Shown one piece after another: positions 25,063-47,662 of a stretch of DNA of 64,000 nucleotides. Under the pieces are notes generated by a model, which saw only the letters and a program-made list of their open reading frames with translations, did no database searches and had not been told where the DNA came from. The DNA is from Eudromia elegans (taxonomy: Eukaryota; Chordata; Aves; Tinamiformes; Tinamidae). The stretch spans positions 948,694 through 1,012,693 of the forward strand of contig PTEX01000140.1 in the NCBI GenBank assembly GCA_003342815.1, read 5' to 3'. Position 1 is the first letter of the stretch. Each line of letters begins with the position of its first letter. The position numbers and the translations under genes were made by a program.

Positions 25063-47662
<22,600 letters not shown>

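Follow-up and report, generated by a model that had tools for sequence, protein, structure and literature searches.

Alternative splice acceptors a few bases apart probably give FRMPD4 of Eudromia elegans two C-terminal ends

In the bird Eudromia elegans, the last coding exon of FRMPD4 (Preso) carries, on balance of probability, alternative acceptors a few bases apart that give the protein two different ends, and the added end is probably a real alternative C-terminus. Use of the first acceptor, AG 1 (46310), by the spliceosome would complete a KETTV PDZ ligand and leave the following ~1.3 kb as 3′ untranslated region (UTR), whereas use of AG 2 (46315) or AG 3 (46324) would append a tail of 445–448 residues and no PDZ ligand. 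Competition between these AGs would set the ratio of short to long protein, with both ends expected to be produced; as both stop codons lie in the last coding exon, neither form should be lost to nonsense-mediated decay (NMD). The proposal starts from what can be read in the DNA itself: three reading frames, a tail that is coding and has paralogues, and two paralogues in this genome that lack the intervening intron.

The DNA analysed, here called the window, comprises 64,000 bases (C46:948694-1012693) of the 944 Mb E. elegans genome, and positions without a contig prefix count from its first base. The gene on its plus strand is FRMPD4, as the original prediction had named it, and re-deriving the sequence and its frames returned the same coordinates and residue counts (Table 1). 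Exon 16 matches the FRMPD4 peptides of Protein Data Bank (PDB) entries 4WNG (E 4.4e-22), 4WND and 4WNF (E 8.1e-22), and 4WNE (E 1.5e-8), and two Preso peptides of 10 and 15 residues, given in an excerpt of PMC10965980, occur here letter for letter. The shorter is the Homer ligand—residues 800–809 of Preso in that excerpt—which lies at 43207-43236 in exon 15; the longer is the D-domain peptide, at 38623. The LGN-binding peptide, the Homer ligand, and the D-domain, all specific to FRMPD4, are present at this one locus.

Matches of PRPS type follow the gene on the same strand, ~38 kb downstream of the tail (within C46:996352-1047627), and others follow the FRMPD3 tail by ~7 kb on the strand of FRMPD3 (within C15:345670-356198). 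FRMPD4 thus has the expected kind of neighbour here, given the human gene order, in which PRPS2 adjoins FRMPD4 and PRPS1 adjoins FRMPD3. With PRPS-type matches after both genes and on the gene strand, the arrangement looks like a duplicated neighbour pair. Elsewhere in the window, two long open frames resembling reverse transcriptase (20062-21216, minus strand, and 59993-61063, plus strand) are probably CR1 elements, which suits a bird, and a search of the whole window against Rfam at gathering scores returned no match. An excerpt of PMC8278112 uses chicken FRMPD4 (ENSGALT00000049598) to illustrate a gene that overlaps a long noncoding RNA on the opposite strand.

Table 1. Features of the FRMPD4 locus in the window; exons follow our own numbering.
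Feature	Position	Strand	Remarks
FRMPD4 exon 15	42398-43459	+	Open frame with splice signals; contains the Homer-ligand peptide
FRMPD4 exon 16	43785-45059	+	Ends in phase 1 (ACT ACA G), then donor GTACAG
LGN-binding motif region of exon 16	44069-44143	+	Part of the exon that matches PDB FRMPD4 peptides
Intron, exon 16 to last coding exon	45060-46316 (to AG 2)	+	1,252 bases to AG 1
Acceptor AG 1	46310-46311	+	Val, then stop; protein ends in KETTV, of class I PDZ-ligand type; 5.05 bits
TGTAG	46312-46316	+	Short form: exonic (completes the Val codon; TAG at 46314-46316). Long forms: intronic
Acceptor AG 2	46315-46316	+	Long frame AFTEPEK..., 448 added residues; 3.50 bits
Acceptor AG 3 (CAG)	46324-46325	+	Same long frame, starting after AFT; adds 445 residues; 6.32 bits
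Long C-terminal frame	46317-47662	+	Stop codon 47660-47662
Weak similarity to talin rod (Talin_IBS2B)	47327-47641	+	~105 residues near the tail end; below cut-off

The intron before the last coding exon runs out in ...CTACTACCCCTAGTGTAGCTTTCACAG. Splicing to AG 1 gives ...IPKIKETTV and the TAG stop; splicing to AG 2 gives ...KETTAFTEPEK..., in which the added residues are one Ala and a further 447; and splicing to AG 3 gives ...KETTEPEK..., with a tail three residues shorter than that via AG 2. AG 1 and AG 2 stand five bases apart, inside the limit of fewer than 12 bases that defines tandem acceptors, and lead into different frames, with AG 3 placed 14 bases from AG 1. Both frames of the predicted switch thus exist, with the adjustment that three AGs are involved, the third scoring best with a generic matrix. 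That 3′ splice-site weight matrix does not single out AG 2. None of the three acceptors is strong: 10.7%, 17.8%, and 7.0% of 4,495 AGs in the window score at least as high as AG 1, AG 2, and AG 3, respectively; for comparison, the acceptor of exon 15 scores 5.70 bits and that of exon 16 scores 9.31 bits. Pentamers resembling a branch point lie at 46274-46284, 27–37 bases ahead of the end of AG 1. Some 500 bases before the acceptor, the intron also holds two copies of TGCATG, an RBFOX-type motif, eight bases apart (45796-45809); since the count of TGCATG in the window (46, with 50.65 expected) is within chance, this pair was left out as evidence.

A second AG exactly five bases past an AG is found at 372 of the 4,496 AGs in the window, and the tandem spacing is therefore ordinary and means little by itself. 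An AG followed by T-N-stop, which here reads Val-stop, is rarer (75 of 4,496), so that a class I ligand falling exactly at AG 1 is unlikely to be accidental, although this was judged after the fact. The string CTAGTGTAG occurs once in the window, and 28 of 100 shuffles contain it at least once. Searches of viral contigs with the tail and with the tail alignment A1 (see below), of genome contigs with the tail and exon 16, and of plasmids with the tail found no relative of FRMPD4 beyond E. elegans; TAGTGTAG is thus read in one genome.

AGs fewer than 12 bases apart compete (PMC1431707), and upstream acceptors tend toward heavier use (PMC8055015), according to excerpts of the two papers. Our expectation is that the short form would be the major product alongside some long form, and that AG 3 may alter the balance. 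An alternative that we regard as unlikely is that the long form alone, made via AG 2 or AG 3, matters in this lineage, the Val-stop at AG 1 being a little-used cryptic site. It would agree with the local score of AG 3, the best of the three, with an ancestral tail under selection (see below), and with the frequency of five-base AG pairs by chance; however, AG 1 is the first AG past the likely branch point, in the upstream position that is favoured in the excerpt of PMC8055015, and splicing to it would produce a class I PDZ ligand where excerpts of PMC10965980 and PMC6591282 locate one.

At the protein level, one frame ends in KETTV and the other in ...SLKMLLNK; the residues themselves thus predict a C-terminal PDZ ligand of class I for the short form and none for the long form. 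The KETTV form would accordingly be the one to bind PSD-95-type PDZ domains, and the long form would not. The mammalian protein, with a canonical length near 1,322 residues, would likewise end in ETTV; counted on from residue 800 as printed in the excerpt on Preso, the short form of E. elegans ends near residue 1309, close to that length. The original prediction had called the two ends identical, and this holds as far as position goes: excerpts of PMC10965980 and PMC6591282 place a PSD-95-binding PDZ motif at the C-terminus of FRMPD4/Preso. Those excerpts, together with that of PMC13060437, describe the PDZ-ligand end of mammalian FRMPD4 and no long tail, and among the papers listed, the titles and opening lines of abstracts name no long C-terminal form. 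Current gene annotation may already list it.

Such descriptions, and a scanning process that favours the first AG (PMC8055015 and PMC1431707, in excerpt), would fit a second alternative, in which the short form alone matters, AG 2 and AG 3 are splicing noise, and the tail is coding sequence of former or rare use. We consider this quite improbable in view of the tail itself, which keeps 448 codons open (~2e-11 by chance at this base composition), has an intact end beside the ...LTRSLKTLINK of FRMPD3, and bears codon positions that show selection on protein. Stops are spread through its other frames (21 and 39 on the plus strand; 21, 11, and 26 on the minus strand). When the tail was used for a six-frame search of the E. 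elegans genome, three places were found: the tail itself, a stretch of FRMPD3 (C15:355389-356198) with 40% identity to tail residues 163–447 (46805-47659; E 2.0e-41), and a stretch of FRMPD1 (C283:57218-57733) with 25% identity to tail residues 270–440 (47126-47638; E 2.0e-4). The C15 locus is named FRMPD3 by its match to the beginning of exon 16 (52% across 49 residues) and by its PRPS-type neighbours, and the C283 locus is named FRMPD1 by the LGN-binding motif that it shares with FRMPD4. This motif of 15 residues is common to FRMPD4 and FRMPD1, and the aligned region of FRMPD3 is without it. In the alignment of the three tails (A1), which are homologous, the FRMPD4 piece is 41% identical to FRMPD3 and 24% identical to FRMPD1, with 21 columns invariant among the three sequences.

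Over the last 190 codons aligned between FRMPD4 and FRMPD3, there are 88 differences at first, 53 at second, and 150 at third positions, a pattern that is the mark of purifying selection at the protein level; 18 codons are identical, 65 synonymous, and 107 replaced. Judged by its sequence, then, the long tail is coding, which bears out the claim that the frame is protein-like: the 448 codons are open, paralogues match it, and its codons carry the pattern of selection. The first 162 tail residues found no paralogue match in the six-frame search of the same genome and rest on the open frame, a point that speaks for the tail being a decaying relic that has become part of the 3′ UTR and has ceased to be translated in FRMPD4; the complete openness of the frame, its 40% identity to FRMPD3, and the excess of third- over second-position differences nevertheless make such a relic very unlikely. 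The tail on its own matched nothing in the PDB up to E 10, its A1 profile gave two unconvincing PDB matches (best E 0.96) and no talin there, and NCBIfam gave no match.

Recoding was also considered as a route to the tail. Ahead of the stop, the -1 frame stays open over 22 codons and continues into the tail frame, and the long form could in principle be made by -1 ribosomal frameshifting on the short mRNA, with splicing not involved. The zero frame from exon 16 to the stop, however, contains no slippery heptamer of the form X XXY YYZ, and read-through of the TAG leads into a frame other than that of the tail; recoding is therefore unlikely as a route, and frameshifting in particular seems extremely remote.

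The paralogues also bear on how the two ends arose. One open frame of 1,082 codons in FRMPD3 holds both the tail and the sequence equivalent to the start of exon 16 (C15:358017-358160), and in FRMPD1, the region of the LGN motif and the tail lie within one open frame of 783 codons. The 1,252-base intron of FRMPD4 has no counterpart in either, the comparison covering three paralogues of the same genome. An uninterrupted tail frame in both relatives argues for gain of the intron in FRMPD4 and for an ancestral tail; hence, the intron between exons 16 and 17 was probably gained in FRMPD4, and the long end is probably ancestral, with the PDZ-ligand end derived and arising with the intron. A gain is preferred because it is simpler than two losses, and a possible alternative is that an ancestor shared by FRMPD1 and FRMPD3 lost the intron. 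Nothing in the repeats of the intron pointed to where it came from. What the original prediction had called a large C-terminal domain can thus be identified as the C-terminus common to FRMPD1, FRMPD3, and FRMPD4, with the adjustment that the long form probably predates the short one. The layout of the paralogues, in which the intron is seen in FRMPD4 only, is new relative to that prediction, and their uninterrupted frames offer a way to test how a PDZ ligand under splicing control arose.

Near its end, the tail bears a weak resemblance to the talin rod. The Pfam profile Talin_IBS2B reaches E 0.028 with the whole FRMPD4 tail and E 0.007 with a shorter piece, and it matches two of the three paralogue tails (FRMPD4 and FRMPD1; best E 0.0046), with FRMPD4 at 16.7 bits, short of the curated cut-off of 27. 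When the same profile was run against the E. elegans genome, 25 places were found at E up to 10, seven of them above the cut-off: 20 lie on two contigs taken as talin genes, one is TLNRD1-like, and four are others. The four include the tails of FRMPD1 (E 0.42, 19.8 bits) and FRMPD4 (E 1.77, 17.8 bits), and the FRMPD3 tail is absent from the 25. The TLNRD1-like place (C11:882478-885834) is a single open frame of 391 codons with a Talin_IBS2B match of E 4.3e-7. When the three tails were compared, profile to profile, with six talin-type segments, the score was 25.1; the reversed profile reached 12.9 and ten column shuffles no more than 18.7, and the probability value of the comparison was only 13%. 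These results point to, but do not establish, a talin-rod-like bundle in the FRMPD tail, and no membership of that family is claimed.

FRMPD4 is said to link PSD-95, Homer, and metabotropic glutamate receptors (PMC10965980 and PMC6591282, in excerpt), and variants in it have been reported in cases of intellectual disability, epilepsy, and hearing loss (PMC13060437, in excerpt). If the long form exists, with its tail of >440 residues common to FRMPD1 and FRMPD3, any construct, antibody, or variant screen designed around the short form leaves out part of the protein. A wider scenario, which we put forward tentatively and regard as doubtful, is that an intron was gained within one long last exon and that its tandem AGs came to regulate a choice between a talin-like tail and a PSD-95-binding end, kept in both birds and mammals. 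Were the switch true in both groups, the annotated 3′ UTR of mammalian FRMPD4 would hide a coding domain, and variants in that UTR could be relevant to hearing loss and to X-linked intellectual disability.

Several known systems resemble parts of this arrangement. Tandem alternative splice sites (TASS; PMC8055015, in excerpt), which include NAGNAG acceptors and shifts that disrupt the frame, share the closely spaced AGs competing at one acceptor; FRMPD4 differs in combining a frame-shifting five-base pair, a known ligand end set against a long conserved tail, and a last coding exon in which NMD should spare both outcomes, and it is absent from the main text of that catalogue. In Caenorhabditis elegans, alternative 3′ splice sites account for 60 of 136 non-triplet, NMD-resistant events giving C-terminal isoforms (PMC13247117, in excerpt). 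The likeness is that one splice choice yields an extended and a truncated C-terminus; the nematode events are backed by RNA sequencing, whereas the FRMPD4 case comes from sequence, and the gene is not named in the main text of that paper. With the bundles of the talin rod and TLNRD1, the FRMPD4 tail shares a weak profile similarity that stays under the Pfam cut-off. The C-termini of FRMPD3 and FRMPD1 have a tail homologous to that of FRMPD4, but neither an intron nor a KETTV end was seen in either.

The closest working parallel is SynGAP, whose layout FRMPD4 shares. In SynGAP, the C-terminus depends on which acceptors are used in exons 19 and 21, and alpha1 is the sole form with a terminal class I PDZ ligand (QTRV). 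The early and late acceptors of exon 19 lie 13 bp apart, and use of the early one results in a form terminated by an internal stop (PMC9064290, in excerpt). Each is a postsynaptic protein in which alternative acceptors toward the end of the gene shift the reading frame and one of the ends is a PDZ ligand. According to the same excerpt, SynGAP differs in having four ends, another spacing and exon arrangement, and a usage that has been measured in brain. In FRMPD4, known from sequence alone, the spacing is five (and 14) bases, and it is the early stop that would supply the PDZ-ligand end.
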